Positions 12,409 through 46,975 of a stretch of DNA of 46,975 bases are shown here, piece by piece. The stretch is from the NCBI GenBank assembly GCA_030683155.1, contig JAUXMV010000071.1:1-46975 (forward strand), read 5' to 3'. The position numbers and the translations under genes were made by a program. The notes under the pieces were generated by a model, which worked only from the letters and a program-made list of their open reading frames with translations, did no database searches and was not told the DNA's origin. The stretch's first letter is position 1, and every line of letters begins with the position of its first letter. The stretch is from Bacteroidales bacterium (lineage in GTDB: Bacteria > Bacteroidota > Bacteroidia > Bacteroidales > F082).

Positions 12409-12424
12409 AAGCAGGATATCTGAG

Positions 12425-12598: not shown

Positions 12599-12605
12599 GA
12601 GGTAA

Positions 12606-12639: not shown

Positions 12640-12647
12640 GGTTAAAG

Positions 12648-14227: not shown

Positions 14228-14284
14228 AAAAAAGTATTATTTTATTCATATTCAATTACTTACGTCCTTAGCTTGACGGCAATG

Positions 14285-14372
14285 GTTGCAAACTACGCCG
14301 AACAGGGGCGACGTTGTTGCAAACTAACGAACAGGTGGCGACGTAGTTGCAAACTACGCCGAACAGGTCGAT
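14285..14372. repeat. Palindromic repeat array, right part
   Basis: The array resumes directly after the IS with the second half of the interrupted unit, then one gttgttgcaaactaacgaacag unit and one gtagttgcaaactacgccgaac unit. Solo relatives with a CACAG loop are at 16167-16195 and 28532-28559. Confidence 0.75.
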
Positions 14373-21696: not shown

Positions 21697-21700
21697 AGGC

Positions 21701-21783
21701 GTGGAATCGTGGAACTGTGGAATCGTGGAATTGTTGAATCGTGGAATCGTGGAATTGTTGAATTGTTGAATCGTGGAATCGTA
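21701..21783. repeat. 9-bp tandem repeat (TGGAATCGT variants)
   Basis: About nine imperfect copies of a 9-bp unit (tggaatcgt, tggaattgt, tgaattgt) lie between the capsid and portal genes, just upstream of the portal start. No gene or promoter is obvious. The 9-bp period is shared with the gggacttgt tract at 23645. Confidence 0.8.
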
Positions 21784-21859
21784 GTTGCAGGCTGTGCTTT
21801 AGGAGACCGCCCGACATTTGAGAAAAATGGGAAAAAAGTTTGTCGGGCGGTTTAGTTTG

Positions 21860-23203: not shown

Positions 23204-23232
23204 CTTATTAATGAATTAGAGGGTTTGAGAAA

Positions 23233-24420: not shown

Positions 24421-24421
24421 C

Positions 24422-24547
24422 CTATTTCACGGTTGATGCCAGTTCTGCACCAGGTTTGAATCCGGGGCGGCGTGGTTTTGTTGGAATTGAAGCAAGCTGC
24501 TTAGGCGAGGTTGCTTTAGGAGTTGAAGGTTTTGGAGTTTTTGCCAT
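24422..24547 (-). CDS. 41-residue basic Lys/Pro-rich phage protein
   Basis: The frame starts MAKTPKPSTPKATSPKQLAS and ends ELASTVK, with nine lysines and eight prolines. Its stop (TAG) is one base before the ATG of the protease-scaffold gene, so coupled translation is very likely. A good minus-strand -7 box (TACTTTTG at 24574-24581) lies about 27 bases upstream of the start. It is first in the structural operon. A DNA- or capsid-binding role would suit its charge, but nothing in the sequence proves it. Confidence 0.6.
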   Translation of the reverse strand: MAKTPKPSTPKATSPKQLASIPTKPRRPGFKPGAELASTVK

Positions 24548-24573
24548 GATTTTAAGTTTTTTGAATGTGTTGG

Positions 24574-24665
24574 CAAAAGTACGTTTCACTTAAAGTAATA
24601 CTTTAGTATAAAGTGGCAATATCTTTGAATATCAATGATAAATAACCATTTTTGACGTAAGTTTG
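24574..24665. promoter_or_regulatory. Divergent promoter region with operator-like inverted repeat
   Basis: On the minus strand TACTTTTG (24574-24581) and on the plus strand TAAGTTTG (24658-24665) both fit TAnnTTTG, facing the structural operon and the terminase genes respectively. Between them lies TAAAGTA-A-TACTTTA (24591-24605) with a further related half-site TATAAAGTG. Neither promoter has a clear -33 element. A single regulator could control both directions. Confidence 0.45.
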
Positions 24666-24686
24666 TAGAAATATAAGTTTAAAGGA

Positions 24687-24920
24687 ATGGACGAGGAAAG
24701 AAAGTTGATCAATGATGTAAATGAAACAATAGGTTTCGATATTACAAACATCTATAAATCAGGACTTATAGAGATAAAACAGTTACGGAAATGGGTTGTG
24801 AAAGAGAAGTATTTTTCGCTTGCCAAGACCGGGAGGACCTATACGGACATAAAAAATCAGCTGAGCGAAGAGTACAATGTCAGCATCAGTGTGATTGAAA
24901 AAATGATTTACAGAAAATAA
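24687..24920 (+). CDS. Small phage protein with possible helix-turn-helix
   Basis: 77 aa, MDEERKLINDVNE to MIYRK. The C-terminal half (TYTDIKNQLSEEYNVSISVIEKMIY) looks like a helix-turn-helix as found in small terminase subunits and regulators. It is the first of three plus-strand genes, ahead of a second terminase-small-like gene. It could be a DNA-recognition helper of packaging or a regulator of the divergent promoters; the sequence alone does not decide. Confidence 0.6.
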   Translation: MDEERKLINDVNETIGFDITNIYKSGLIEIKQLRKWVVKEKYFSLAKTGRTYTDIKNQLSEEYNVSISVIEKMIYRK

Positions 24921-24949
24921 GCAACCCCAGGAATTAAGACAAAAAAGTT

Positions 24950-25357
24950 ATGGAAAACATCGACAAGGAAAAAGGAAAAGATTTGGGAGGCAGGCCAAAA
25001 AAAAATGTTGATTTACTGCCCGACCACTGGAATGAGGCAATAATTGAACTTTACACGCAGGGAGGATCAGACAAAGAAGTTAAAGCTTTGATCAATAGCT
25101 GGTTAGGTTCGTTTTCTAACGATTTGTGGGACAGATGGATGAAAGAGGAAGAGGGGTTTTCGGAAACCATAAAAAGGGGGAAAATGCTGAGTGAAGCCTG
25201 GTGGGAAAAACAAGGCAGGACGAGCCTGACTTCGTCAAATTTCAATGCTACACTTTGGTACATGAATATGAAAAACAGATTCGGTTGGGCGGACTCTCAA
25301 AAAGTGGATCATACCACAGCAGGCGAAAAAATAAATGTAATCTTCGAACGTGGATAA
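24950..25357 (+). CDS. Terminase small subunit
   Basis: 135 aa. The LGGRPKKN start and the helical region (ELYTQGGSDKEVKALINSW, then the RTSLTSSNFNATLWYMNMKNRFGW stretch) are characteristic of small terminase subunits in Bacteroidetes and related phages. It recognises phage DNA and recruits the large subunit. Its end overlaps the large-subunit start (GTG at 25350) by 8 bases. Confidence 0.8.
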   Translation: MENIDKEKGKDLGGRPKKNVDLLPDHWNEAIIELYTQGGSDKEVKALINSWLGSFSNDLWDRWMKEEEGFSETIKRGKMLSEAWWEKQGRTSLTSSNFNATLWYMNMKNRFGWADSQKVDHTTAGEKINVIFERG

Positions 25358-26519
25358 AAAAATCTTGTTCGGATATATTTTCACGGAAACTGAAAAAGCC
25401 ATAAATGAAGGTGAAAAAATCATCATTCACAAAGGGGGCACCGGCTCCGGCAAAACTTATGACTTAGTTTTATTTCTTGTATTTCTTGCAATGCAGTTAA
25501 AAGGTAAAGTGATAACTGTAGTCAGTGAGAGTAAGCCACACCTGGACATTGGCGCCATCAGGATCACTCAAAAAATCCTGATGGATCTTGATCTAAGTTC
25601 AACAGTGCAATACAACAGCACACGCGGAATTTTCACCTTCCCTTCAAAAAGTGTGATTGAGTTTTTTTCTGCAGACAGGATTGAGAAGGCTCTGGGAGCA
25701 CGGAGGTACCTGCTTTATGGCAATGAGATCAATACATTGAAATTTGAAATCTGGGATGAGTTGGCACGGCGGTCGGAAATTGTGATCGGAGACTTTAATC
25801 CGACGGCAGAATTTTGGCTGGAAAAATTCCTGTCGTTTTATGGAAAGCATAAAATAATAAAAAGCAACTATCTGAATAATAAATTTCTCCCGCCAGAAGA
25901 AGCAAGGCGAATTGAACTCAGGGCGAAGCTGGATGTTAATTTTAAGCGGACACATATAGACGTGGAATATGGCAGTCTGGAAGGGCTGATCTTCACCGAC
26001 TGGAAACAAGTGAATGAATTCCCTGAAGATTGCAAGTGGGTTACTTTTGGAATGGATTTTGGGTTTACGAATGATCCGACAACGCTGGTAAAGGTGGGGC
26101 TGAATGATGGTGAATTGTGGATTGATGAGTTGGAGTACAGAACCGGGCTCCTGGCGTCTGACCTGGTTGTTATCCTTCGGAAACTTGGTTTGGGCTGGCT
26201 GGATGATATTGTTGCAGACAATAAACCGGAGACGATTTATGAGTTGAGGCAGGCTGGGTTCAATGTCAGGGCTGCTTATAAGCCTGCGGGGAGCATCGTT
26301 TATGGCATTGACGTCATTAAGCAGTACAGGTTGAATGTGACGGCAAGATCACTGAATCTGATCAGGGAGTTGCGGAATTATAAGTGGAAAATAAATAAGG
26401 CCGGTGATCCTCAAAATGAGCCGGTGGACACCTACAATCATGCAATTGATGCACTGCGGTATGCCGTGATGGGAAGAAAGCTCGGGCGGAGACGGATGGT
26501 GAAGGTGAGCGGGGTTTGA
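25350..26519 (+). CDS. Terminase large subunit
   Basis: 389 aa with a GTG start overlapping the small subunit. The ATPase domain has the Walker A motif GGTGSGKTYD near residue 29 and a Walker B-like LLYGNEIN. The nuclease domain shows the Asp-containing GMDFGFTNDP near residue 233, then DNKPETIYEL and the C-terminal NHAIDALRYAVMG. It powers DNA packaging and cuts the concatemer. The protein appears complete, on the short side for the family. It is the last plus-strand gene of the phage part. A short direct-repeat tract (gtcttaaggtctgaag) follows at 26520-26560. Confidence 0.92.
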   Translation: MDKKILFGYIFTETEKAINEGEKIIIHKGGTGSGKTYDLVLFLVFLAMQLKGKVITVVSESKPHLDIGAIRITQKILMDLDLSSTVQYNSTRGIFTFPSKSVIEFFSADRIEKALGARRYLLYGNEINTLKFEIWDELARRSEIVIGDFNPTAEFWLEKFLSFYGKHKIIKSNYLNNKFLPPEEARRIELRAKLDVNFKRTHIDVEYGSLEGLIFTDWKQVNEFPEDCKWVTFGMDFGFTNDPTTLVKVGLNDGELWIDELEYRTGLLASDLVVILRKLGLGWLDDIVADNKPETIYELRQAGFNVRAAYKPAGSIVYGIDVIKQYRLNVTARSLNLIRELRNYKWKINKAGDPQNEPVDTYNHAIDALRYAVMGRKLGRRRMVKVSGV

Positions 26520-33480: not shown

Positions 33481-35556
33481 TTAGAAGATCTTCTCATGAA
33501 ATAATTTAAAGAGTTTGGTTGACATAAGATCTTCCCTTACTTCAAAGTCCTGGAATATTTTACCATAAAAGTTAGTATTTAATGTTTCATTGTTATTAAT
33601 TTCACTTACGATTAGATCAAACATATTGATGATATCAGAGTACATAACTTTTACGTCTGATTTTATCATAGTTTGTAATTGAGTTATTTTACTGCTAGTT
33701 TCTTGTGCCCAAATATAGCTCTCAATTCCCTTTAAAAAATCTACAATTACTTCAGAATCTTCTTGGCTAATAATTAACATATCATCATTAATATTTGTGA
33801 GAAATTGAATTTCTTCATATAATAATTCAAAATTGGTATCAATAGAGTAATCAAATTTATTGGGCAATTTAAGGTCTTTAATAAAACCCCAATTTGAGTT
33901 GAACAAAGAGTGGCTATATTCCCTTCGTTTGTTTTCTACTTGTAGATCAAATTCGATTTCGCTTTTAAAGATATCATCTCCTTTTTCAAAATACTTATGA
34001 TTAAAATAAATAAATATATCCATATCTGAATATTTCCAACTTTTTAGCATTAGAAATAATCTTCTGTAAACAAGAATTGTTTCTCTGAATAAGTTCAGCA
34101 TTTTATCAGGATTGTCTTCCTTATTAAAAGAGGGTTGCAAAACATACTCTTCAGGGAAATATTGTAATCTAAGTAGTCTATCTACTTTAAGGTTGATTTT
34201 ATTTTCAGCGTCAACATAATCATTTGATTCTATGTGTAATTTATATAAAATTGAATAATTAAAATTTACATTAACCCTTTTTGCAACACCATTTTTCCAT
34301 CCCCCAGTTCTTGGAATAGAATGCTTTTTAAAAAACGAATCACCAGCTACTTCTACAATACGCTGACAAAAAATATTAAACGAAGCCTCCTCTCCAGCCA
34401 ATACATCGGCCTTATTAAACCAAAGTATTGGGAATTTTGATTGCTTCTTAATATATTCTTCAATAGTCCCCTTTTTGCTAGTCAGCATTACATAAGCATA
34501 ATTCGATTTGAGGTTTTTACCAGAGTTAATGCGATTTAAAATTTGATAACCTTGTATATCCTGCCATTTTCCCGTCTCACTTTTCCCATCCAAATATAAA
34601 CGAAAATCAGTTATAATCAGAGAAATAACTTTTGGACCAGCTTCATCCACTCTTAATAGAGCAAATGCATCTTCTGCGTTTTGTGCAGTTTGACAAGTGA
34701 TTCCATTACGACGAAAGTGCTTTTCAATGACATTGCAACAGTATTGTTGATCGTCAACAAACAAAACCTGCCAACGTTTTCTGGTCACCTGTTCTTCACT
34801 TGGTTTTTCTTCTAGTGATGGCAATAAGTTGTAAAATTGATTGTTTAATCCCTCTAATGGGCTTCTAAGTTTTTCAGGTGAGAAATCCTTTCGCTCTATT
34901 GTAATTTCTATTTGATCATTTATTTCATTTGTAAGTTTATCAAATTCAGTCATTTTTTCCGGTAGAATTTGTTGCTTAAAGATCTGTAATTGTTCAATTA
35001 AATAATCTTTAACAACCTTCTTTATATTATTTTTATCATATTTATTGTTATTTTTTTTTACGTTATAAGCCAATTCAGGACAACGATTTTTGATATTGTG
35101 TACTAAGTCGTATACAAGCTTTTTGCTATTAGTTAGGTAAATGTTGATATCTTCGAGAATATCACGATCAAGATATTCGTAATTATTTAAAAATGGCTTC
35201 TCTAATGGCAATTGGAGGTGGTAGTGCCCAGGATAATTTAAAATTTCTGATTCTGGCTTTTTTATGTTAGACATGCAAGGCATAAATGAATAAAAAATAA
35301 TTGGGCAGAGGATTTTCTTATTTAGACGTAAATCTTTTGCTAATTTAAATCCATAAAATTCAGTCCTACGAATAGGATTCCATTTTAATTCGATTAAAAT
35401 GTAAATTCGATTAAATTCAGAAAAATTGGTCTCATCATAAGTTGTTTGATCAAAAACAATTTTATTGCATTTGCTTAAAAAAGATTGAGGATAATTCTCA
35501 TTATCCCAAATCATGCAGCAATTGTATTCATTATCTATGTAAGTTATTTTTTTCAT
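33481..35556 (-). CDS. Receiver-domain protein with long helical C-terminus
   Basis: 691 aa. Residues 1-140 resemble a degenerate receiver domain (KKITYIDNEYN start; RIYILIELKWNPIRRTEF; IIFYSFMP; HYHLQLPLEKP). A canonical receiver lies at about 263-390: acidic pair in VLFVDDQQY, phospho-acceptor Asp in LIITDFRLY, Thr in VMLTSKKG, Lys in FNKADVL. The C-terminal 300 residues are helical and unassigned. It is the last gene of the six-gene operon, starting two bases after the stop of the receiver-HEPN gene. It probably receives phosphate from the upstream kinase. The output function is unknown. Confidence 0.75.
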   Translation of the reverse strand: MKKITYIDNEYNCCMIWDNENYPQSFLSKCNKIVFDQTTYDETNFSEFNRIYILIELKWNPIRRTEFYGFKLAKDLRLNKKILCPIIFYSFMPCMSNIKKPESEILNYPGHYHLQLPLEKPFLNNYEYLDRDILEDINIYLTNSKKLVYDLVHNIKNRCPELAYNVKKNNNKYDKNNIKKVVKDYLIEQLQIFKQQILPEKMTEFDKLTNEINDQIEITIERKDFSPEKLRSPLEGLNNQFYNLLPSLEEKPSEEQVTRKRWQVLFVDDQQYCCNVIEKHFRRNGITCQTAQNAEDAFALLRVDEAGPKVISLIITDFRLYLDGKSETGKWQDIQGYQILNRINSGKNLKSNYAYVMLTSKKGTIEEYIKKQSKFPILWFNKADVLAGEEASFNIFCQRIVEVAGDSFFKKHSIPRTGGWKNGVAKRVNVNFNYSILYKLHIESNDYVDAENKINLKVDRLLRLQYFPEEYVLQPSFNKEDNPDKMLNLFRETILVYRRLFLMLKSWKYSDMDIFIYFNHKYFEKGDDIFKSEIEFDLQVENKRREYSHSLFNSNWGFIKDLKLPNKFDYSIDTNFELLYEEIQFLTNINDDMLIISQEDSEVIVDFLKGIESYIWAQETSSKITQLQTMIKSDVKVMYSDIINMFDLIVSEINNNETLNTNFYGKIFQDFEVREDLMSTKLFKLFHEKIF

Positions 35557-35558
35557 AA

Positions 35559-37853
35559 TTAATTGATTTTTGTTGCATTAATTGCATAATAATTAGGAGG
35601 GTAAGTTGTCTTTATTGATAAATTAAACTTGATAAAGTCACCTTTTTCAATATTCACATTTTCTAATTGAGGATTATTGTTCGGTCTTGCATCCATAATT
35701 ATATTTGACAAACCGCATAATAAATTCAAATTTGGATTTCTTAAATAAAAACGAGTTGAATAATTTTTATCAATTTTTTCAACTACTGTAATATATTCTT
35801 TGCCGTCTATTGGTTCTTTCAAATCAACAATCACTTTTAAAATAGAATTATAATCAGATAAATAAACAAACAAATGATCTACAAAATCAACCATCTCATA
35901 AAAGGAACAATTATTATCATGGACTGCCCTGTTTCGTATATCAAGCATCTCAATCCTGGGCTTCAATGCATTGCTAAATTGATCCCTTAATTTACTGCTT
36001 AATGATATTCTGCCTGTCTCACTATATGGATCATCTGTTTGATGTATGTTTTCAAGAACACTCGAAAGTTGCGTGATAATAGCCGATGGCAAATGTTCTG
36101 TTGAAATATTCTGTGACTCCTGTAATTTTAATCTGAAAAAATCTTCAATTACACATATGGATTGAGTGAAAATAGAAAAAATTTCTTCCCTATCAATTAT
36201 TTTTGTTTTAGGATAAATATGCTGATCTGACACCCAATCATTATGCTGCCACCAAAATTCTTCTTTCTGAGTTTTTAGTTGTTGGAGCGAGACTTTCCAA
36301 TTCTTAAGCTTTTTAAATTCTTCCGATTGAGTCAGGATATAAACAATTTCTACAAATCGGATATAATTCTCAATACTAAATCTTATGTCTCTGTTTTCAT
36401 CAAGGCCTTCTTTTATCCAAAAAGCAAGTGCGCCATTTTTAAATGTTTCTTTATAGGACCAAATTTTATTTGATGCCGTTGTAATTAAAACGGGACAAGT
36501 TAATCTCTGTGAAAGCATTTTCAGAACCTGAATCCCTGAAAGGTTAGAAATATTTGTTGTAAGCCCAATTTCTCCTTTTAACCTAAGATCAAGAATAATC
36601 AAATCTGGTTCATATCTTATCACTTGTTGGAGAATGTCACTTGAAGTTTTATCTATTGAATCATCTTTTTCAGGTTTGATCACATGAAACGATTCACTCA
36701 AACCTTCATAAATCATTTGTTGAAAAATAAATCCCCAACCATCATCTGCCTGATCATCAATAAATAAAATTCTAGGTGCAGCCACTTTAAGTCTCTCTCT
36801 CAGTACGGTAACGCTTAGATTTTTGTTTGAAAATATGTTCATGCCTTCTATTTGGTGCATGATTCGAACGATTTCTAAATTCAATCGATTATTTTCTTTC
36901 TCGATATTAATTTTTTCCTCTTTTATAAGTGAGTCAAGTTCAATATATTCCTTTAATATAGTAGCCTCATCTTCTGTGTTTGCCTGCGCTATTACTAATT
37001 GATTAATTTTTTTTGATATTGGTTCGGAAATCATTTTTAATTTTTCCAATACTGACTGAAATATTGTTTTTGCTCCTTCATCAATAAGAGCTTCATTTAG
37101 TATCTCAATCTTCTGTGCAATTATACTTAATTCACCAATTTTCTGATCATAAACTTTAATGAACATACCAATTTCTTCATTCCTTTTCCCGAATCGTTCT
37201 ATCTGATTTTGTTGCAATTGCTTTAGATGATCTTCAATATTCTTTTCCTTTTCTCTATATAGGTACCTTGCTAATAATCCTTGATATGAATTCATCTCCT
37301 TTATTGAGATTGTAAATGAATTCTCAATTTCTGTTGTCATAGCGATGCCGGCATCATGAAGCTGTGCCTTATGTACTTTCCAAAGTTGCAAAACTCCCCA
37401 CCAATTTGCAAAAAAATGTCTATCATCTGGCATTATTGTTTCCGCTTTAAAAAATGCTGAAAGATCTCTTGGAGCAGTTTTTTTGACCAATTCATCAAAT
37501 TTTAGCTTTACCATATCATCTGGAAGTCGCAAAAAAGTTAAACCATCTGAAAAAACAATTAGGTTCTCAGGGTTTTGTAATAATAATTGTTCTCGAGACA
37601 AAAAAGAGAAAATAACACAGTGTTGATTCAAATTTTTTAATCTCAGGTATTTAAGCAGAATAATTCCAGGATTTTGTGAACGACGAATGTTTTCTGCTTT
37701 ATAATTAATATTGATAACAAATAAGTCGTAAGAGGAATAATTTTTATAAATATTTTGACTTATGAGCTCTGGGGATTCAAGTTTATTTAATACTGTTAAA
37801 TAATCTAGCTTTGAAAAGAGCGTGTTTTGATCGTCAATTAGAAGTGTCTTCAT
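35559..37853 (-). CDS. Pseudo-receiver, receiver and HEPN-like fusion protein
   Basis: 764 aa. The N-terminus MKTLLIDDQNTLF and the IFSFLSREQ and LTFLRLPDD stretches look like a receiver domain lacking the acceptor Asp. A coiled-coil region (about 195-350) follows. A canonical receiver at about 358-480 has FIDDQADD, LIILDLRLKG, LITTASN and FWIKEGLD. The C-terminal helical region holds IRNRAVHDNN; RNRAVH at residues 640-645 is the RX4H signature of HEPN ribonucleases. The protein could be a phosphorylation-controlled RNase, by analogy with HEPN effectors of toxin-antitoxin and defence systems. The HEPN assignment rests on the motif and its helical setting only. Confidence 0.72.
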   Translation of the reverse strand: MKTLLIDDQNTLFSKLDYLTVLNKLESPELISQNIYKNYSSYDLFVININYKAENIRRSQNPGIILLKYLRLKNLNQHCVIFSFLSREQLLLQNPENLIVFSDGLTFLRLPDDMVKLKFDELVKKTAPRDLSAFFKAETIMPDDRHFFANWWGVLQLWKVHKAQLHDAGIAMTTEIENSFTISIKEMNSYQGLLARYLYREKEKNIEDHLKQLQQNQIERFGKRNEEIGMFIKVYDQKIGELSIIAQKIEILNEALIDEGAKTIFQSVLEKLKMISEPISKKINQLVIAQANTEDEATILKEYIELDSLIKEEKINIEKENNRLNLEIVRIMHQIEGMNIFSNKNLSVTVLRERLKVAAPRILFIDDQADDGWGFIFQQMIYEGLSESFHVIKPEKDDSIDKTSSDILQQVIRYEPDLIILDLRLKGEIGLTTNISNLSGIQVLKMLSQRLTCPVLITTASNKIWSYKETFKNGALAFWIKEGLDENRDIRFSIENYIRFVEIVYILTQSEEFKKLKNWKVSLQQLKTQKEEFWWQHNDWVSDQHIYPKTKIIDREEIFSIFTQSICVIEDFFRLKLQESQNISTEHLPSAIITQLSSVLENIHQTDDPYSETGRISLSSKLRDQFSNALKPRIEMLDIRNRAVHDNNCSFYEMVDFVDHLFVYLSDYNSILKVIVDLKEPIDGKEYITVVEKIDKNYSTRFYLRNPNLNLLCGLSNIIMDARPNNNPQLENVNIEKGDFIKFNLSIKTTYPPNYYAINATKIN

Positions 37854-37922
37854 AGATTAATCAATTTAGAAAATTACTGAATTATGGAAACTCCAAATTA
37901 TTTTTTTATTAGAATAACTATA

Positions 37923-40649
37923 TTATTGAGTCAATTTTTTGGTTTCGAAATTAAAAGGGTCGCTAGGCCTGTTATTATGCATGATACGAGCAATGCAATT
38001 GAAATTAGGCAGGTTTATAATCTCTCTGGCTGTAAACTCCGGTTCAACAAAATGTCTGATTTTATTAATGTCGTTAATCCCTGTCCTGAAAAAAGCTGTT
38101 GATCCTACATTTCCCAATACTGATTGTATTAAAAAATCATCTAACTGACCAATGGTTTGATTTGCCAGCACAAGACCTACATTGTACTTTCTAACTTCAC
38201 TGAGGGCACTACCAATATCTCCATGCATGAAATTCTGAAACTCATCTATAAAAATAAAAAAGTCTCTTCGTTTAGCGATAGGTAATTCCGTGCGTGACAT
38301 TATAGAGGATATCATGTTATTGAGAAACAGCATACCAACCTTAGCAAGATTTGCCGGACCAATACATCCTTTCTCCATCCTTACGAGTAAAATCTGACCA
38401 TTATCCATAATCTCCCTGAAATTTAAGGTTGGTTGATTATTGTCGAACATAACACTTATATACTCGTTATCAACAAAAAATTTAAGTTTCGAATAGATAT
38501 AAGGCCTTATTGTATCCCAATCATGATCGCCCTTACTTTTTAAAGCATTCTTAAAAACCAAATCTAGTTCGGATGTATTTATTTTATCGGTTAAATAGTC
38601 CTCTGCAAGCGAAATTGGTACAATTTCGTCTTTTACGAGTGACAATAAATGATCTAAAAAATCAGGAATGAGAAGTGCTTTGTATGCCAACTTTATAGTT
38701 GGAGCTTTAAAAATCTCAACTATTTTAGGCTGCATAATTAAATTTAATACAGATTTAAAATAGGTTTCAAACATAGGGCCGCCAACTATTTTATAATCAT
38801 ATTCCATTGAGAGAATACGTATCAGCTCATCAATCAGCATACTTGGTTTGACAAAGACCTCTGGATTTAATAGATTAAGTTTTGCTGAGGTATCGAGCTT
38901 GTTGGTATCAAACCAAACAATATCTTTTTTACGGAAATCAGGGATCATCTTTTCAACATCCTCTATTAGATCCCCGTGAGGGTCAATAACACAAAATCCA
39001 TGATGACCTGAAATGGCATCGTGAATCATCGATTTTAGTAAGGTTGTTTTGCCGGTACCTGTCTGACCCAGAACGTACATGTGTTTTTTTAGTGAATCCG
39101 TATCGATCCGAATTGATCTTGTTTCTGCACCTATTTTTTTTTCGCCCAACAATAAACCGGTCTCAGCCAGATTGCCTGGAATAATTTGAATACTTGCATT
39201 TTGGTAAGGCAGTCCTTTCACCGGTTTTGCAACAGGTTCAGGGAGACGAAATAAAAATGCGACTTCCTTGCTTGCTTTGGCAAAGGATAAGCGGGAAAGT
39301 TTCATGTGCTTGTCGATACTGAAAAGATTGTCGAATAAACCCTTCTGAAGGGTAAATTTCACATTCGAGCCTTCTGAGTAAAAATGTCTTTTTATTTCAA
39401 TATCCAGTGGTTTTGGAATTAAGGAGTGGATATCTGAAATGTATCTTACTTCAAATAAAAAATGATTTGGAGGTGATGATTCTATACTTTTATATTTTGT
39501 GATGTATTCGTTCACTTTTTCTTCAGGTAAATCGACTGATGGCAGTACCTCCCCATCAATGATCTTTTGTACAAATTCTTTCTCATTATTTCGCAATCTG
39601 AGTGGCTGAATATGAATAGACAAATGGGAAGTGCCAATGGAGGAAAGCAATGAGAGGGCCAATAGGTTATAATTAGAATAAAGTTCACCCGAGTATATCT
39701 TTGGAAGAAACTCAGCACTCAATGACTGTATTCCATCATTCATATCCAGATTATAATCAGCAGGATCACCCCAACAAATTGGTTCGCTATATAACCTCAC
39801 AGCAGGATTGACGAAATTAGGATATAAAATTTCCTTTAATGTTTCAATATCAATTATAGGTTCAAAAACGTAGGGATGAGATGGTGATTCATGAATTGAT
39901 AAAACGTAAGGTTCGACAGCCGCAATAAACTCATTCGCAAGCGCAATCAAATTTTCATTATTTGACTCATATAAGCTAAAAACCAGGTAAAAATCGATTT
40001 GGGCCTTAGAACTATTTTTAACCATGAATAAACTAGGCATCGCGTATTCATGGTAAGATGAGGTTATTATGTGTAATAAGTTGTAATGCCAGCGATAAGA
40101 AGCTCTTAATATACTATCCAGCAACACTGTATCCGATTGCATTGAAATGCTGGTAAGTTTATATGCAAACTGACAAAGTGGTTCTTCATTTTGGAACAGT
40201 AAGGAAGGGGTAGTTAAATCTGCATCAGATTTTGATTTCTTTGGGATACGTTTTTTTAATTTTGCCTGGTTGATGGCATTTCCTAATACATGAAAAAGAT
40301 GGGTTGGATCCAATGAAGTTTTTCCCATGAAGTCGTAGGCGCCATTTTTAATACACCTTATCGCTGTTGGAGTATTGTCGTAACTTTCGGTAAGTACAAC
40401 AACCGGAATATTGGGGTATTTATTCCGCAATTCACTTAACGCCTCTTCGCCTTGGGTTGGCTGACCGGTAAAAAGTAAATCGAGTACCACAGCATAAATG
40501 TTGACGCTGTTTTTATCAAGTTCATGAAATCCTTTAGAAACCTGATCAGCATAAATTACATTTAGTCCTTTTGCTTTTGCAGCAACATCCAGAACGGGCT
40601 TTAAGGGATCGATATTATCGTCAATGAAAAGAATGTATTCAGGTTCCAT
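37923..40649 (-). CDS. Receiver-HerA/TraG-type ATPase fusion
   Basis: 908 aa. Residues 1-125 are a canonical receiver domain (YILFIDDNID, AVVLDLLFTG, VVVLTESYD, DFMGKTS). A middle region of about 370 residues, unassigned, precedes a P-loop ATPase of the HerA/VirD4/TraG group. Its Walker A is LGQTGTGKTTLLKS (about 528), Walker B-type VIDPHGDLIEDV (about 555), and the second acidic motif FFIFIDEFQNFMHG (about 801), followed by VLANQTIGQLDD. Such ATPases are hexameric DNA or protein pumps in conjugation and in HerA-based defence systems. No transmembrane segment or relaxase gene was found nearby. It overlaps the 256-aa gene by 11 bases. The receiver suggests that phosphorylation gates the motor. 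Confidence 0.82.
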   Translation of the reverse strand: MEPEYILFIDDNIDPLKPVLDVAAKAKGLNVIYADQVSKGFHELDKNSVNIYAVVLDLLFTGQPTQGEEALSELRNKYPNIPVVVLTESYDNTPTAIRCIKNGAYDFMGKTSLDPTHLFHVLGNAINQAKLKKRIPKKSKSDADLTTPSLLFQNEEPLCQFAYKLTSISMQSDTVLLDSILRASYRWHYNLLHIITSSYHEYAMPSLFMVKNSSKAQIDFYLVFSLYESNNENLIALANEFIAAVEPYVLSIHESPSHPYVFEPIIDIETLKEILYPNFVNPAVRLYSEPICWGDPADYNLDMNDGIQSLSAEFLPKIYSGELYSNYNLLALSLLSSIGTSHLSIHIQPLRLRNNEKEFVQKIIDGEVLPSVDLPEEKVNEYITKYKSIESSPPNHFLFEVRYISDIHSLIPKPLDIEIKRHFYSEGSNVKFTLQKGLFDNLFSIDKHMKLSRLSFAKASKEVAFLFRLPEPVAKPVKGLPYQNASIQIIPGNLAETGLLLGEKKIGAETRSIRIDTDSLKKHMYVLGQTGTGKTTLLKSMIHDAISGHHGFCVIDPHGDLIEDVEKMIPDFRKKDIVWFDTNKLDTSAKLNLLNPEVFVKPSMLIDELIRILSMEYDYKIVGGPMFETYFKSVLNLIMQPKIVEIFKAPTIKLAYKALLIPDFLDHLLSLVKDEIVPISLAEDYLTDKINTSELDLVFKNALKSKGDHDWDTIRPYIYSKLKFFVDNEYISVMFDNNQPTLNFREIMDNGQILLVRMEKGCIGPANLAKVGMLFLNNMISSIMSRTELPIAKRRDFFIFIDEFQNFMHGDIGSALSEVRKYNVGLVLANQTIGQLDDFLIQSVLGNVGSTAFFRTGINDINKIRHFVEPEFTAREIINLPNFNCIARIMHNNRPSDPFNFETKKLTQ

Positions 40650-41409
40650 AATTTGAGTTTAATGATTTATCAATTTCTTTAAACCCACGGATTAACTCAT
40701 CTATTTTTTTTATCATTTCGTTTTCATTTAAATGTGTGAGGTTCTTCGCATTGGTAATTAATGCATTTAGGTCATAAAAAAACATATGAATTTTTCTTTC
40801 CATATCACTTTTCCCTTCAAGTTTTTCCGAGTCATTTTGAATAGATTTAATCAAAGGTGATTGCCAATAATTAGAGATGTGTTCATCTATTATTTGATTT
40901 ACGACACTAATTTTCTCTTCAATATGCACATCTAACAGTAGCGCCATCCGAAGTGGAACTAAAACAATGTTCAAAAGTTCATTGGATTTTCCATGTTGTA
41001 AGTTATTCCAAGACATGCAAACACTTTCAAAACACAATTGATGTTGCATCTGCCTGAATACCAAATTATCTGGATCTTTAATGGATTCAGTACAAACAAA
41101 TATTTGTTGAGGACTAAATGGCAATCGCATAAAATATATTCCTTCAGTAGGGAAAAGAAGATGACTTAAAGTATTAGACTCAGTTTGAAACGAAAGTAGA
41201 ATAACTGGATTGAAAGTACCAGTTCGACGCAGCAAATTAAGGTTTTCAAGCCAATATGTGGTTTTATCAGGATGCCAGGCTGATAAAATAATGCAATGAT
41301 TTTCATTCAGCGCATTTTGTGTATATTCCTCAAAATGAATATTGCGCGATATAAAAAATTCCAATATCTGTGAAGGACAATTAATTAGAAATGGAGTCCA
41401 TTTTGGCAT
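40639..41409 (-). CDS. Small protein with receiver-like N-terminus
   Basis: 256 aa. The first ~115 residues (PKWTPFLINCPSQILEF, NPVILLSFQTESN, IYFMRLPFSPQQI) follow the same strand and motif pattern as the degenerate receivers of the two downstream proteins, without acceptor Asp. The rest is helical (DVHIEEKISVVNQIIDEH; NENEMIKKIDELIRGFKEID). The 3' end overlaps the ATPase gene by 11 bases, indicating coupled production. It may be an adaptor between kinase and ATPase. Confidence 0.6.
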   Translation of the reverse strand: MPKWTPFLINCPSQILEFFISRNIHFEEYTQNALNENHCIILSAWHPDKTTYWLENLNLLRRTGTFNPVILLSFQTESNTLSHLLFPTEGIYFMRLPFSPQQIFVCTESIKDPDNLVFRQMQHQLCFESVCMSWNNLQHGKSNELLNIVLVPLRMALLLDVHIEEKISVVNQIIDEHISNYWQSPLIKSIQNDSEKLEGKSDMERKIHMFFYDLNALITNAKNLTHLNENEMIKKIDELIRGFKEIDKSLNSNYGT

Positions 41410-41468
41410 AATAAAAATCTTTTAATGCACGTTGAATTTATTCATTTTTGATAAAATGTTGGGCCGTA

Positions 41469-42146
41469 TTATTCAGCGCTTTCTAAGATAGCATCTCTTA
41501 ATTCAGCAAGTGCCTCAATATATCCCTTATCCTGTAAATTGCTTGGCAGGGCAATCAAGAGGCTATTTGTTTTAGAATTTGATAATTCTGCTGGTACCAC
41601 TTTCGGTTTGCTGATTAAACATTCGTGTAAGAAATCTAAGGCCTTTTCCAACCTGGTATTTCCATGAAGATTATTTTCTTTAAGAAACTGATTAAAGGTT
41701 AACTTTTTATCATTGCCAATAAATAATACCAATTTGTAGTATAGAGAATACTGTCCTGTTAATTGAGTCTTCCTTTCTTCATTATCCTCTTTCATTGTAA
41801 TATAAAATGGATTATTCGTTAAATAATTTAACATAGCCACAGGAGCACTGTGTTTGATAATAATAAAAATATCTTCAGGCAAATAGCTAATATCAGTGTT
41901 ATCAGGCATCATAAGTATAGATGCATTACTTGCTTTATTTTGATCAAAAGAACCTGCTTCAAATCCTCCATTTTCATCAATATAGATAATGCCATTCGGA
42001 ATATTGGAATTAAAGTACACCAAGTCTCTGTTACCATCTTCATCAATTACATAATGGGAGAACAGATTTTTAAAATCATCATTTAAACCATTTAGATTTA
42101 ATAGAGTTTTAAATGATACAAGATTAAAGAATACAATTAGTTGCAT
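41469..42146 (-). CDS. Protein of unknown function, second gene of the signalling operon
   Basis: 225 aa. It starts MQLIVFFNLVSFKTLLNLNG, has an acidic beta-rich first half (GNRDLVYFNSNIPNGIIYIDENGGFEAG) and a helical C-terminus (KALDFLHECLISKPK). I recognise no domain. It starts 18 bp after the kinase stop, so the two are co-transcribed. The first strands could be receiver-like, but I could not confirm it. Confidence 0.6.
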   Translation of the reverse strand: MQLIVFFNLVSFKTLLNLNGLNDDFKNLFSHYVIDEDGNRDLVYFNSNIPNGIIYIDENGGFEAGSFDQNKASNASILMMPDNTDISYLPEDIFIIIKHSAPVAMLNYLTNNPFYITMKEDNEERKTQLTGQYSLYYKLVLFIGNDKKLTFNQFLKENNLHGNTRLEKALDFLHECLISKPKVVPAELSNSKTNSLLIALPSNLQDKGYIEALAELRDAILESAE

Positions 42147-42164
42147 AATTTTAATTTTATAAAT

Positions 42165-45100
42165 TTATAAAGATTTTCTGCTATCATAGAGTATTTGAAC
42201 CAAACGAAATTTATCGAAAGTAGTTTCAATGGCATTTTGAACCAAAGAAATTGGTACATAAGAAACATCTTGCGACACATTGTTCGCTTTCCCTCTGCCT
42301 GAAGTAATTACAACCTTTTTACTGTTTGCTTCGCCGGAAATTATTTCATTTAGGATTAAATCTATTGCGGTATCGCTTTTTTCATTTTTGTCAATAAGCA
42401 ATTTCTCAAGAATACCAAGATGAATAACAACAAAGGAGGATCTATCAATATATCTTTTAATAAATTCCACAATTTTTCCTTTCTCTTCCATTAAGTTTTT
42501 CTTATTAAGATCAGGATCAATGTCGTTTCGTAAAGGAATAAATATGCCCATTTGCTTGAAATAAGTAGCAAATGGGATTTTGTCAGCATATTTTTTTTTA
42601 TGAATTACTATGCTTTTTTGAATCCTTTCATCAATAATAATAACATTTGTGAAAATAGTTTCTAAGTATGGTTCAGCATATTTGGATTCGTTAAATAAAC
42701 CAGGCTCCAAATCAGGTCGTAAATGATTTTTTGTCCAATGATGACCACATATCATTTCATGATAACTGCCATCTTCTAATTTGTTAATTATTTCCTCATC
42801 CGTCTTCATTGTAAGGCCATCATGGTGGTTATATAATTTCACATTTATATAGGCATTATCAATTTTTTGTTCAGGAAAAACTAGATTTTCATCATGTGCA
42901 TCACATGATAACAAATTTACAGACTTTTTATATTGCTTTGCCCAGGAACACCAACAAGCATCAATAAATTTCATGCGATTATCAAATGATTGTTCCACTT
43001 CAAAATAAATTTGTCGCTTTGGTAGGGAAGCTGTAAGTGAGATAGAGGCATCTTGAAATTTTCTGAAATCATTTTCACTGCCCATATATACCAAAAATTT
43101 ATGGTTGAATGTATCTGTCTGTGTATCGTCTGGTTCAATAAACTCGATTCCATATTTTAACAACGCTTTCCTGTCATTATTCTTAATTAATACATTATTG
43201 CTCAGCAGATCAGCTTGATCACACACAACGAGAACCTCCTTTGGCTTACTTAAATAAAACTTGTACCCCAATGCGAATAAATCATCCTTATTACCCACAT
43301 CATCTTTTGGCTGCTCATAAGCATACATAATCATGGGTATGTTTACTTTCTTCTCTTTATCAAAATATGGGTCACCGTTTTGATAAACGTCATTATTGAA
43401 TAAATTATATTTTGGGTTTACAACCTCAGTTACCGGCAATTTACGCAAGTAGGCGGCACAAGTTGCCATCTCAATAGTCCCCAGACTGTTATCGCGTAAC
43501 CTGCTTTCATCTTCTTCATGCCATATTGAATCATCAAAAGATAAGTTTCTTTTTTCTACCAGATTACCAATAATTGACTTAGGCCTGTATACCTCAGAAA
43601 AAAACCTTACTTCGTAAAAATCATGATTTTGAATATAATCTTGAATCATTATTTTCAATGTAAGTTCATTTTCTTTCTCCGTCAATTCACCATGCTTTAC
43701 AGTATTTCTTATTACGTTACTCCAAATAATGTACATCGCCTGGCATCCTAATACATCGTTAGGTACTGCAATAGGCAAGTCATACTCATCATTCAACTCC
43801 TCTTTGTCTTTAAATATTTTAAATTTATACCAAAGTGTACTATCCTCAATGCCGGAAATACGGTTGTTGAAAATAAGGTTGTTATTAAAAGGAACAAATA
43901 TATCCTGATAAAAATCAAGTGTTGTTAATGAATTAGGGTCGGTTGTTGCCACATCTGCCCTGAAGTCCATACGGGTTTTTAGGAATCGGTTAAAATATCC
44001 CATTAGATTAGGGTAAATCGATCTTTCATTATTGTTAGAGTTTTTAAAGGTGAATTTCTCCAATAATTCTTTCCCTTGTTGCCCTATGTTTAGATTTTCT
44101 TGCTGAAGATTTGAATTTGGAATAAATTTATATTGGCCATCGGTTTCATTAAAAGAAAAGTCGTCAATTGATTTGTAGGCATCAAGTACATGTCCCAGAT
44201 CATGACTATCAGTGCGCGCATATAACTGTGATAATGCTGCTTTGGCATTGCTCTTAATTGCAGACTTATTCATATTTGCAAGCTCAATATCCTTCTCTTT
44301 AAGAATCGATACAGCTTCAGCTTCTATACTAATTAATTGATCTTTCTGTTCACGAATTTCCTTATCTTGATTGTGTATATGAGCATTCTTATCTCTAATT
44401 GATTCCTCCATTGCTCGTGATTGTGATTCTAATCTTTCTTGCTTCTTTGCACTCTTCTTTAATTTCTTCCTGTAAATAGTAAAATTCAATATTGTAACGA
44501 TAAGTAAAAATACAAAAACAAACCATGCAACATTTCTTGCTCTTCTAGCGATTGTTAGTTTTCCTTTTGCATCTTCTAATAATTCATTGGTGCTACCAAG
44601 TATTATATTGGCCTTTATTAGAGTGTCCTGAGTATTTTTGATTGTTTGCTTCAGTTTGTTATAAAATATACTATCATTAAATACTTTCGTCCTTAGTGTA
44701 TCAAATTTTTTTAATTGGATACTATATTCATATCTCAGTGAGTCAAAAATGTATTTTTGATATTCGATTTCACGCTCATAAAAGTCAATATTTTTATAAT
44801 ATTGGTCAGCTAAATTATTATGTTTAATTTCATTCAATTCATTGATTTCATTGGTATGAAAATTAATGTTTCTAAAATATCTTCCGGCAAAAATATCTGC
44901 AGAATCGTTATATTTTTGTAATCCTTCTTTTTCAAATAGACCACTATATAATAAATATGCAATATAGTTTCCTCTATTTAAATAAAAATCACTTACTTCT
45001 TTGTTTTTGAATCCCTCACGTACACTTAATAATCCTTCATTAAACTTTCCAAGTCTTCTATACAAATTACCTTTTTCAAATAAGTAAAAAGAATTGAGCC

Positions 45101-46535
45101 AATTTAATTTGAACATTCTACTTATTTCAACAGCTCTGTTAATATTGTGGATTGTCTCTTTTTCATCATTTATTTTTTCATAGTCATAAGCAAGCCATTG
45201 AAATCCATTTGAAAAGTTAACAATATCTTTTATCGAATTATTGTCAAATGCAGCAATTATACATAATTTATTAAAATAAATGGAGAGAAAAGCATTTCGG
45301 GTTTCATAATAATTTGCTAATCCTTTAAATAAATAGTAATCTTCCCTTTGCATATAGATGTTATTACAAAAGTGTTTGAAACCATCATCAAAATAGCCTT
45401 TTAAAGTATCAACTTCATCCTCCATTAGATTTAAATGCGATTGATTAATCAGATAGAAGGTTATTTGTGATTCGCGTATTTTGGAATAATTTTGTTTCAT
45501 TATATTATTGACCAGTGAATAGTAATAAGCTGAATTTTGAAAGTGAGGTAGCGATTTTTCATCGTAGAGGTTATTACTCCGGCCTAAATAGTTCAATCCT
45601 ATTTTATATTCAATCCTGCCGGCCTCGTTAAATAAACTATTCTTCGTAGCAATATCAAGCGCTTGAAAGTAGGTGCTTAAAGCTAAGGTCAGATTTTCTT
45701 GGGATTTTAAAAAATCTCCAATAAGCTCTAAACTTTTAATTTGGCCTAATACAGAACCATACGAGGTCTCACCATTACTGACATCTACTATTGTTTCAAT
45801 ATCTTCATTTTTTAATTCATTCGTATCCAAAGCAATACCCATGTATTTATGTAATATAACAGATACTTGCTGCAGTGAATCCTTATAGGCCAAATCATAA
45901 GCTTCATCTATGTAATCCTTAAAAATTAAATCACTAGTATAATAGTAAATCACACGAGACTTGAAAAAGTCTGGGGTGGGATCATTTTTAGCATTAGAAT
46001 AATCAAACATGTAAAAAAAGTGTTTCCCAAAATACAGCAAACAATATATTTTTTGGTTCTTATACTTAAGGTTAGAAATTTGGTTACTGATGACTTGAGC
46101 TTCAGTTGAATAATATGAAGATAAATACACAGGTAAGGAATCTATATTATCGATTATGGTTTTGAATAGTTCATCCGTATTATACCAAACTGAAAAGTTT
46201 TCATTTGAAAAAGAATATTTAGGTACTCCTTTCATTAAAAATTGACCGTACAGCGTATCAATTAATTTATCAAACTCATTATAATGATAAATTGTATTGT
46301 TGTATAAGAGGTCAAATTGCATATATGTAGTGTCCAGATATGAGCCATCATAATATTGACGCTCTTTATTTTCAGGAGTATAAGCCGCTCTATCGTTTTT
46401 CTTTATAATACGTATTTTATTCTTAAAAGAATAATTTTGATTAAGAGTATCTGGAATAGATGCCTGGATATTAGAGGAAATTCCAAAAATGAAGAATAAC
46501 AATGTTAGTATCATTAACGTCTTTAATTGGCACAT
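42165..46535 (-). CDS. Large membrane histidine-kinase-like sensor, first gene of the operon
   Basis: 1456 aa from the ATG at 46535; a TTG six bases upstream is possible. A signal peptide (LKTLMILTLLFFIFGISSNIQA) precedes about 640 periplasmic residues made of TPR-like helical repeats. A transmembrane helix (VAWFVFVFLLIVTILNFTIY, about 670-690) and a coiled coil (about 690-770) follow. The likely phospho-acceptor is in DSHDLGHVLDAYKS (about 777). WSNVIRNTVKHGEL (about 940) is an N-box of a GHKL ATPase, and SLGTIEMATCAAYLRKLP a G-box-like stretch. The last ~400 residues form an unassigned domain containing YHEMICGHHWTKNHLRPDL and VVITSGRGK. Three receiver proteins are encoded downstream in the same operon, so it is the obvious phosphate donor. 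Confidence 0.8.
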   Translation of the reverse strand: MCQLKTLMILTLLFFIFGISSNIQASIPDTLNQNYSFKNKIRIIKKNDRAAYTPENKERQYYDGSYLDTTYMQFDLLYNNTIYHYNEFDKLIDTLYGQFLMKGVPKYSFSNENFSVWYNTDELFKTIIDNIDSLPVYLSSYYSTEAQVISNQISNLKYKNQKIYCLLYFGKHFFYMFDYSNAKNDPTPDFFKSRVIYYYTSDLIFKDYIDEAYDLAYKDSLQQVSVILHKYMGIALDTNELKNEDIETIVDVSNGETSYGSVLGQIKSLELIGDFLKSQENLTLALSTYFQALDIATKNSLFNEAGRIEYKIGLNYLGRSNNLYDEKSLPHFQNSAYYYSLVNNIMKQNYSKIRESQITFYLINQSHLNLMEDEVDTLKGYFDDGFKHFCNNIYMQREDYYLFKGLANYYETRNAFLSIYFNKLCIIAAFDNNSIKDIVNFSNGFQWLAYDYEKINDEKETIHNINRAVEISRMFKLNWLNSFYLFEKGNLYRRLGKFNEGLLSVREGFKNKEVSDFYLNRGNYIAYLLYSGLFEKEGLQKYNDSADIFAGRYFRNINFHTNEINELNEIKHNNLADQYYKNIDFYEREIEYQKYIFDSLRYEYSIQLKKFDTLRTKVFNDSIFYNKLKQTIKNTQDTLIKANIILGSTNELLEDAKGKLTIARRARNVAWFVFVFLLIVTILNFTIYRKKLKKSAKKQERLESQSRAMEESIRDKNAHIHNQDKEIREQKDQLISIEAEAVSILKEKDIELANMNKSAIKSNAKAALSQLYARTDSHDLGHVLDAYKSIDDFSFNETDGQYKFIPNSNLQQENLNIGQQGKELLEKFTFKNSNNNERSIYPNLMGYFNRFLKTRMDFRADVATTDPNSLTTLDFYQDIFVPFNNNLIFNNRISGIEDSTLWYKFKIFKDKEELNDEYDLPIAVPNDVLGCQAMYIIWSNVIRNTVKHGELTEKENELTLKIMIQDYIQNHDFYEVRFFSEVYRPKSIIGNLVEKRNLSFDDSIWHEEDESRLRDNSLGTIEMATCAAYLRKLPVTEVVNPKYNLFNNDVYQNGDPYFDKEKKVNIPMIMYAYEQPKDDVGNKDDLFALGYKFYLSKPKEVLVVCDQADLLSNNVLIKNNDRKALLKYGIEFIEPDDTQTDTFNHKFLVYMGSENDFRKFQDASISLTASLPKRQIYFEVEQSFDNRMKFIDACWCSWAKQYKKSVNLLSCDAHDENLVFPEQKIDNAYINVKLYNHHDGLTMKTDEEIINKLEDGSYHEMICGHHWTKNHLRPDLEPGLFNESKYAEPYLETIFTNVIIIDERIQKSIVIHKKKYADKIPFATYFKQMGIFIPLRNDIDPDLNKKNLMEEKGKIVEFIKRYIDRSSFVVIHLGILEKLLIDKNEKSDTAIDLILNEIISGEANSKKVVITSGRGKANNVSQDVSYVPISLVQNAIETTFDKFRLVQILYDSRKSL

Positions 46536-46631
46536 ATTCAATAATATTTAATGGTAAAGGTAAAAATTTAATGGACTTAATAAAAAATTTTATAAAAAAT
46601 TTATTTTCGGCTAAATTATACACCTGTAAAC

Positions 46632-46700
46632 TATCAAAAAGTATCAAAATCAAAGCTTCAATATCTGAAATTAGCCAAACTCAATTTTTTGATACTTTTT
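46632..46700. promoter_or_regulatory. TATCAAAA repeats upstream of the signalling operon
   Basis: TATCAAAA occurs at 46632-46639 and 46642-46649, ten bases apart, and inverted as TTTTGATA at 46687-46694. The longer arms AAAAAGTATCAAAA and TTTTGATACTTTTT are a perfect 14-bp inverted repeat 37 bases apart. They lie about 100-165 bases before the kinase start, as expected for a regulator site. No clear -7 box was fixed on the minus strand. Confidence 0.5.
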
Positions 46701-46825: not shown

Positions 46826-46975
46826 ATGTCAAATTTCTTAACACATAAGGAAATCTTGGATCTCAAATTGAGACACCGTAAGGCAGATCGGAAAACTGCG
46901 GACAAGATCAAGACTATATTGATGTTGGATCAGGGATATTCCTTCGAAGAAATAGCAAGAGTGCTGTTAGCGGAT
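46826..46975 (+). CDS. IS630-family transposase, N-terminal fragment cut by the window edge
   Basis: The first 50 codons run from MSNFLTHKEILDLKLRHRK to EEIARVLLAD without a stop. The LRHRKADRKTADKIKTILML segment and the following SFEEIARVLL are the N-terminal helix-turn-helix of IS630-type transposases. The catalytic part lies beyond the window. Whether this is a whole element cannot be seen. Confidence 0.75.
   Translation, partial: MSNFLTHKEILDLKLRHRKADRKTADKIKTILMLDQGYSFEEIARVLLAD

Follow-up and report, generated by a model that had tools for sequence, protein, structure and literature searches.

A six-gene operon from a Bacteroidales bacterium combining a membrane sensor kinase with receiver-HEPN and receiver-HerA proteins in a predicted phosphorelay

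Contig JAUXMV010000071.1 of the Bacteroidales bacterium assembly GCA_030683155.1, analysed here over its whole length of 46,975 nucleotides and referred to as the window, carries a block of six minus-strand open reading frames (ORFs), P1 to P6, at positions 33481-46541. In this block, a membrane sensor histidine kinase (P6) is combined with two candidate effectors that contain receiver domains, a protein with a HEPN motif (P2) and a motor of the HerA/TrwB type (P3). The operon is a REC-HerA variant of a receiver-HEPN effector system with predicted extracytoplasmic input, and we consider it fairly probable that it acts as a biological-conflict effector system under the control of a phosphorelay. 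Since relatives of P2 are wired to known phage-defence genes, it probably represents a new form of bacterial self-protection.

A first-pass annotation, made from the nucleotides alone, had described six genes in a single transcription unit, and the ORF coordinates reproduce their number, order and spacing exactly. Going from P1 to P6, neighbouring genes are separated by 2 and 69 bp, overlap by 11 bp and are then separated by 59 and 18 bp, short distances that give the six the appearance of a co-transcribed unit with P6 as the first gene in transcription order. The upstream end of the operon had been placed at 46535, where an ATG indeed exists, but the longer frame, which encodes 1458 amino acids (aa), starts two codons earlier with a TTG at 46541. 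In view of their size and their homologues, a chance origin of the six ORFs is excluded.

Conserved residues in the candidate effectors and the sensor kinase

The P2 protein was aligned with its homologues (12 sequences in all; in the following, L numbers denote loci and G numbers genomes). Its receiver retains the characteristic residues throughout, with position 459 occupied by Thr in nine sequences and by Ser in three. Beyond residue 500, R640, N641 and H645 are the only columns conserved in at least 11 of the 12 proteins, and an R-x(4-6)-H arrangement is present in every one of them: the arginine is invariant and is always followed by a histidine five to seven residues further on, shifted two residues downstream in a single homologue. 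The receiver protein with a HEPN RX4H motif that had been proposed initially is thus upheld by its homologues. One P2 relative matches PF18735 at an E-value of 0.041, which is below the cut-off.

P3 combines an N-terminal receiver with a motor core, both recognized by Pfam above the respective cut-offs (PF00072, and PF10412 and PF01935), in agreement with the earlier proposal of a receiver-fused HerA-type motor. The Walker A sequence GQTGTGKT spans residues 528-535 and Walker B ends with DE802-803. The best PADLOC match is the mad8 ATPase (50.8 bits); matches to TrwB and T4SS-DNA_transf and, in the PDB, to DotL were also obtained. Three receiver proteins had been claimed for the operon. P3 alone exceeds the PF00072 cut-off of 30.2 bits, while P1 and P2 stay below it with 20.3 and 26 bits, yet both keep the key residues (9 of 9 and 12 of 12 sequences, respectively), and the claim holds for all three. 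In the case of P1, PDB response regulators match residues 252-352, and K382 is conserved in a five-row set.

The N-termini of P1 and P2 and the small protein P4 look like inactive receiver domains of the iREC type ("Inactive Receiver domain", PF22563), which had gone unnoticed before. The P1 N-terminus is the only PF22563 match listed for the genome to which the window belongs, with no such match listed for P2 or P4 of the window. In a profile comparison, P1 and P2 align with each other at their N-termini (E 1.1e-9), and among seven genomes searched PF22563 exceeds its cut-off in the P2 homologues of four; the N-terminal iREC domain of the P2 relative in L022 scores 57.4 bits. The P4 profile that aligns with the P1 and P2 N-termini (Table 1) consists of three rows, of which the L075 row was assigned by position only. 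BLAST homologues of P4 adjoin P3 in L074 and L126. The HxxxN segments of P1 (H153) and P2 (H146/N150) were considered as phosphotransfer helices and not adopted: the histidine is conserved and nothing shows its phosphorylation.

P6 consists of a signal-like N-terminus, a predicted extracytoplasmic TPR-like region of about 640 aa, one transmembrane (TM) helix, a divergent histidine kinase and a C-terminal receiver-like region. Its H-box and N-box are invariant in an alignment of six P6-type kinases, from which those of L018, L125 and G640 were left out. Neither Pfam nor NCBIfam nor PADLOC yielded a significant match for P6, and a PDB search with the P6 profile was also empty. Because a significant Pfam match is absent, the term GHKL is tenable only for a divergent form. 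Of the initial description of P6 as a TPR-type periplasmic sensor with GHKL boxes, the H- and N-boxes, the signal-like N-terminus and the single TM helix were recovered, whereas the GHKL assignment had to be narrowed in this way and the TPR label is a reading of the sequence. In its C-terminal part (window 42165-42700), the six aligned kinases share an invariant H1374 and a T-S-G-x-G motif (T1413-G1417).

The small protein P5 may be a pseudo-receiver, judging from its sequence. Its best Pfam match is not significant (E 0.22); H99, one of its four invariant residues, sits at the end of a strand-like stretch. A profile comparison revealed a weak likeness (E 2.7e-4) between the P6 C-terminus and the small P5 proteins of systems that contain a reverse transcriptase (RT); no profile match was obtained between these proteins and P5 of the window type.

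Defence genes next to P2 relatives and recurrence of the gene set

All 12 P2 genes are located at most five genes downstream of a kinase gene. Seven of these kinases are of the P6 type and five belong to PF22561, "Histidine Kinase domain observed in conflict contexts". PF22561 exceeds its 27-bit cut-off in G573, G657, G639 and L099; the kinase type of L100 was deduced by alignment from the close L099 copy and not from a scan of its own. P2 homologues that lack P1 follow PF22561 kinases that are either fused to an RT (L022, L070) or encoded adjacent to one, as on plasmids of Chryseobacterium balustinum (L099) and C. oryzae (L100), the RT of the latter being assigned from the record annotation and its similarity to L099. 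PADLOC RT models with class names (XI, XII, I-C) that we take to be retron types match the RTs of L022, L070 and L099 with 313-407 bits. The resulting row in L070, L022, L099 and L100 comprises a retron-class RT, a HisKin-conflict kinase, a small protein and the receiver-HEPN gene. A further arrangement is found in L072 (2735-8760), where a ZorA2 gene (344 bits) and an OmpA/MotB_plug gene precede a kinase gene, whose product is ZorE-like in its N-terminal region (57 bits), and the genes of a small protein and a receiver-HEPN protein, apparently a Zorya system with a phosphorelay effector.

The receiver-HEPN protein appears as an exchangeable effector, because P2-type proteins stand behind either P6-type kinases or HisKin-conflict kinases with RT or Zorya-like genes. 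Type I restriction genes adjoin the L020/L021 system and the plasmid-borne L099 copy, and a methyltransferase is encoded about 13 kb beyond the L126 copy. When ten proteins from such neighbourhoods were compared with PADLOC, six matched defence models (four restriction, one ZorA2 and one primase-type) and four matched none. Plasmid searches returned two records with P2, both of the RT type, and no record with a P6-type kinase; viral contigs were matched neither by two P2 queries nor by the RT-kinase or a P6-type kinase. The operon had originally been interpreted as a signal-gated stress or defence module, and the wiring of P2 relatives to retron-type RT and Zorya-like genes speaks for this interpretation, the defence role itself being putative.

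Recurrence in other genomes was the check attached to that interpretation, and the set P6-P5-P4-P3-P2-P1 is present in three genomes besides that of the window (L074, L126 and L075). The genome scan returned at least 19 loci, ten of which were annotated (L074-L083); the sample is small and consists largely of draft or metagenome-assembled genomes. In L074 and L126, the core order kinase-P5-P4-P3-P2-P1 is kept, with an extra gene inserted between P3 and P2 or between P2 and P1, respectively. L075 is rearranged: P2 precedes a gene in the position of P4, followed by P3 and P1. The L075 genes in the P4 and P5 positions were assigned by position, without a BLAST match to the other copies, and its P1 is 26% identical to that of L126 over 323 aa (E 4e-19).

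P1 homologues were found at ten loci: the window, L018 (G479), L020/L021 (G236), L074 (G751), L075, L123 (G930), L124 and L125 (both G052), L126 (G090) and L133/L134 (G640). P1 is accompanied by a P6-type kinase in nine of them, by P2 in seven and by full-length P3, preceded by a small gene, in four (window, L074, L126 and L075). The tenth locus in terms of kinases, L124, is a contig of 5.6 kb with P1 at its edge; the kinase of L018 is split into two overlapping frames and that of L125 is truncated by the contig end.

The nearest sibling of the window operon, L123, shares 40% identity in the kinase (1501 columns), 44% in P5, 55% in P2 (651 aa) and 49% in P1. Its P4-P3 slot is occupied by genes for a tyrosyl-tRNA synthetase, a 113-aa protein and a tyrosine-decarboxylase-type protein (synthetase and decarboxylase-type genes at 13156-14367 and 10292-12793, minus strand), and the same type of replacement occurs in L125 (2028-6509). 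Just upstream of the L123 kinase, the reverse complement contains a 92-aa ORF (333-611) with a 62% match to the last 45 residues of P6, perhaps the remnant of a second copy.

The system is rare and patchy, as follows from the small numbers of P1 and P2 homologues at every taxonomic level searched. The P1 profile identified three genomes besides that of the window among 344 of its order, two besides it in a phylum draw of 395, and three of 294 genomes of another class. A whole-P6 search in 197 other genomes of the order produced short matches only, in six genomes. P2 gave four matches, including the window, in the 395 genomes of the phylum and three further true homologues in the 294 genomes of the other class; there, the P2 profile matched 259 genomes, nearly all through the generic receiver, and the top four rows were retained (at least 47.3 bits, one being the query's own genome) while those of 37.6 bits or less were dropped. 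In eight other genomes of the genus, the P2 profile detected generic receivers of at most 25.1 bits and no full-length relative, a distribution that fits horizontal acquisition.

Proposed mechanism, known systems and alternative readings

A mechanism can be envisaged in which the TPR-like region predicted for the periplasmic side of P6 senses an extracytoplasmic or envelope cue. P6 would then autophosphorylate on H780 and the phosphate would pass to the receivers of P3, P2 and P1, with P4, P5 and the iREC-type N-termini serving as docking, buffering or threshold elements. Phosphorylated P2 would become active as a HEPN RNase on cellular or phage RNA, phosphorylated P3 would be released as a HerA/TrwB-type motor on DNA, and P1, with its iREC region, H153 and receiver, might be a phosphate hub or buffer in the manner described for DtcB in Detocs (PMC11728103). 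The joint result would be growth arrest, dormancy or abortive protection rather than transcriptional control. Searches of Pfam, PADLOC and NCBIfam with the six proteins found no transcription-factor DNA-binding domain, which makes a direct output probable.

The first-pass annotation knew of no described system in which a phosphorelay drives both a HerA-type motor and a HEPN nuclease. Phosphorelay-driven defence as such does have precedents in Detocs and in the HisKin-conflict/iREC families of Pfam; for one kinase driving both HEPN and HerA, none was found among the open-access papers listed, as judged from titles, the beginnings of abstracts and term counts. Detocs (DtcA/DtcB/DtcC) is described as a defence operon in which a histidine kinase is joined by a small protein that buffers phosphate and by a response regulator (PMC11249213, PMC11728103), whose best-described effector is a PNP that cleaves ATP (PMC11249213). 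By its published description it follows the same working outline of a kinase and a receiver-effector. It differs in having three genes instead of six, and in the operon studied here both HEPN and HerA are candidate effectors and the sensor is predicted to be extracytoplasmic. Compared with the Detocs buffer protein, the stand-alone P4 and P5 of the window show no recognizable active receiver.

The HisKin-conflict/iREC systems come close in another respect: P2 homologues carry iREC in four genomes and stand beside PF22561 kinases in L022, L070, L072 and L099. P6, in contrast, has classical H- and N-boxes and is not matched by PF22561, and in the window a membrane sensor takes the place of the RT or Zorya-like inputs, while REC-HerA, P4 and P1 are added. 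Burroughs and Aravind 2020 is the likely founding paper of these systems and, together with Rousset et al. 2023, the likeliest place of an earlier description of the present arrangement.

Other defence systems share single components with the operon. Likeness to Zorya is confined to the L072 relative, with ZorA2, OmpA/MotB_plug and a ZorE-like kinase in front of the receiver-HEPN gene; ZorA and ZorB have no match among the six proteins of the window, and the link runs through the common effector only. The resemblance to retrons lies in L022, L070 and L099, where the kinase is joined to an RT or has one as its neighbour and a P2 homologue follows downstream; Pfam finds no RT among the six proteins. 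The P3 motor belongs to the same superfamily as those of SIR2-HerA and of MADS (mad8), but its partners are a fused receiver and a phosphorelay, and neither SIR2 nor a DUF4297 effector nor mad2 is present among the six proteins. RNA-targeting defence with kinase or receiver components is known from the fusion of Schlafen RNases with a minimal histidine kinase near BREX (PMC12839542) and from type I-B CoCoNuTs, which include a receiver domain (PMC11090510); the available portions of these two reports describe no HEPN-HerA pair under one sensor kinase. Receiver domains have also been noted in conflict systems without histidine kinases (PMC8195603), and TPR, HATPase and REC appear in a figure legend as domains of predicted defence systems (PMC13092281).

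Several observations weigh against a phosphorelay-gated conflict system. Phosphotransfer, RNase activity and phage protection are predictions. P6 gives no match to PF22561 (cut-off 27 bits) in the window contig even at an E-value of 10, and an hhalign comparison of five P6-type with five PF22561 kinases reached a probability of 0.4 over 36 columns. As both comparisons fail, the two kinase types are perhaps non-homologous in their catalytic part, and it is the effector that is common to both groups, not demonstrably the kinase type. AlphaFold models computed from alignments of the window, L074 and L075 sequences were too poor for fold searches (pLDDT, the predicted local distance difference test, 34.7 for the P6 C-terminus and 42.4 for P2), so that the HEPN fold assignment rests on the conservation of the motif. 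The P2 protein of L126 has Gly instead of the HEPN Asn, and two of the P1 loci, L125 and G640, are without P2. Finally, ABC importer genes precede the kinase gene in six of the ten P1 loci, with a metabolic enzyme encoded alongside or fused to the kinase, which is unlike the direct sensing of phage.

In view of these transporter and enzyme genes, a cue from outside the cell is no less plausible as input than phage. The importers are of the Liv type in L018 and L020/L021 and of the Opp type with SBP_bac_5 in G640. L075 has BPD_transp_1 with an ATPase, and L126 a BPD_transp_2 permease with an ATPase, to which a gene resembling substrate-binding proteins just upstream in L136 can be added by eye. 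L074 encodes an ABC ATPase and a substrate-binding protein like that of L020, and here the permeases in L128 were likewise read by eye. The enzymes beside the importers are PALP/SDR, radical SAM and methyltransferase proteins. In L126, the kinase itself (1798 aa, 2486-7882) carries a SPASM domain in its N-terminal part, that is, a radical-SAM-type region is fused to the kinase.

The operon could consequently be viewed as a cell-to-cell or environmental switch, in which the kinase is set off by a small molecule or a modified peptide, either imported or periplasmic, and HEPN and HerA enforce dormancy, competition or kin discrimination instead of phage defence. We rate this as rather unlikely, although it is the most probable of the alternatives. 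It draws on the importers in six of ten P1 loci with their PALP/SDR, radical SAM/SPASM or methyltransferase companions, on the tyrosyl-tRNA synthetase and tyrosine decarboxylase genes of L123 and L125, and on hydropathy, according to which the kinases of the window and of L123 are the two that combine a signal-like N-terminus with a TM helix. No TM segment was seen in the hydropathy scan of the L074 and L126 kinases, whereas those of L075, L021, G640 and L018 show marginal or strong hydrophobic segments, and a soluble kinase with an importer versus a membrane kinase without one is therefore a tendency and not a rule. In the 16 kb upstream of the L123 kinase, read by ORF starts only, no importer gene was seen; at 10-16 kb, opposite-strand ORFs resemble, by eye, type I restriction genes. 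What speaks against such a switch is that the same type of P2 protein also occurs with retron-type RTs and with Zorya-like genes and that the window operon has no enzyme of the kinds found beside the importers; upstream of P6, the contig extends for only 434 bp.

A conventional two-component stress response with RNA- and DNA-acting enzymes as outputs and without any role in conflict appears improbable. Sensor kinases of the periplasmic TPR type frequently act as regulators in Bacteroidota and three ordinary receivers are present, which would suit such a response. The rare and patchy distribution (P1 in three of 343 other genomes of the order and two of 394 others in the phylum draw, P2 not found in eight genomes of the genus) does not suit it, nor do the missing transcription-factor domains and the restriction genes near some copies. 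That P3 is instead the coupling protein of a conjugation or type IV secretion apparatus, as its matches to TrwB, T4SS-DNA_transf and DotL might suggest, is very improbable indeed: a Pfam scan of 16 window proteins detected no relaxase, mating-pair or further transfer gene, and P3 is fused to a receiver and accompanied by P1, P2 and a P6-type kinase in four of four full-length loci, while seven annotated motor-only loci have no BLAST match to these partners. Beyond genomes, viral contigs scanned with P3 gave four motor-only loci, three of them annotated; plasmids gave 51 records, none covering 80% of P3, and the two inspected carry no response-regulator or kinase annotation; phages gave one weak record.

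Returning to the phosphorelay-gated conflict system, a bolder generalization can be formulated, which we regard as speculative and unlikely. The family might be a general phosphorelay immunity chassis, with one receiver-HEPN effector and its kinase, a swappable input (retron-type RT, Zorya-type motor, ABC importer or membrane sensor) and an optional REC-HerA protein. The branch represented by the window would be triggered from outside the cell, a small molecule or modified peptide from neighbours starting RNA cleavage and the DNA motor before infection as a colony-level alarm. Apart from this generalization, if the conflict-type reading is right, the sensing and killing parts of defence are joined by a plug-like, rewirable phosphorelay, with one type of receiver-HEPN protein served by an RT, a Zorya-type motor, an importer or a membrane sensor. 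The operon offers a testable case in which an RNase and a DNA motor would be under the joint control of a single kinase, and one may ask whether outside signals lead some bacteria to arm effectors of this kind.

Features and surroundings of the operon

The coordinates of the genes and of their domains and motifs are compiled in Table 1. The window is an entire contig of a 4.74-Mb genome that is assembled in 111 contigs.

Table 1. Genes, predicted domains and conserved motifs of the operon (window coordinates; residue numbers refer to the respective protein)
Feature	Position	Strand	Evidence
P6, membrane sensor histidine kinase, 1458 aa	42165..46541	-	ORF, alignment, hydropathy
P6 transmembrane helix, aa 671-689	44475..44531	-	Kyte-Doolittle mean 2.57
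P6 H-box, aa 776-784, H780 likely phosphoacceptor	44190..44216	-	R776, H780, H784 invariant in 6/6 aligned kinases
P6 N-box, aa 937-950 (N942, RN945-946, KH949-950)	43692..43733	-	invariant in 6/6 aligned kinases
P5, proposed pseudo-receiver, 225 aa	41469..42146	-	H99, L170, L173, R217 invariant in 8/8 aligned sequences
P4, iREC-like N-terminal domain, 256 aa	40639..41409	-	profile alignment (hhalign), E 4e-6 with the P1 and 1.7e-5 with the P2 N-terminus
P3, receiver fused to HerA/TrwB-type motor, 908 aa	37923..40649	-	Pfam, PADLOC, PDB; full-length homologues in L074, L126, L075
P3 receiver domain, aa 6-117 (D10, D11, D57, T87, K110)	40299..40634	-	five residues invariant in 4/4; PF00072 35.1 bits, above cut-off
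P3 motor core, about aa 512-900	37950..39116	-	PF10412 38.8 bits, PF01935 37.1 bits, PF02534, all above cut-off
P2, iREC-like N-terminus, HxxxN segment, receiver, C-terminal HEPN, 764 aa	35559..37853	-	12-sequence alignment
P2 receiver, about aa 361-490 (D366, D367, D422, K481)	36384..36773	-	conserved in 12/12
P2 HEPN motif R640-N-R-A-V-H645	35919..35936	-	R 12/12, N 11/12, H 11/12
P1, iREC-like N-terminus, helical segment with H153, receiver, C-terminus, 691 aa	33481..35556	-	H153, D269, D317 in 9/9
P1 iREC-like region	35221..35430	-	PF22563 17.7 bits, E 0.011, below cut-off 27

The stretch that separates the P6 start from an ORF at the end of the contig contains a perfect 14-bp inverted repeat (arms 46636-46649 and 46687-46700, spacer 37 bp), possibly a regulatory site or the end of an insertion sequence (IS). 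The ORF itself (about 46826-46975, plus strand) runs off the contig and resembles, when read by eye, the N-terminus of an IS630-like transposase. A location near a prophage and IS elements had been stated initially; the IS part was recognized by eye only, and the prophage part applies roughly, the prophage-like genes being situated at 20416-26519, with a weak portal match below the cut-off at 20416-21696 and a terminase gene at 25350-26519 (PF17288, 58.9 bits).

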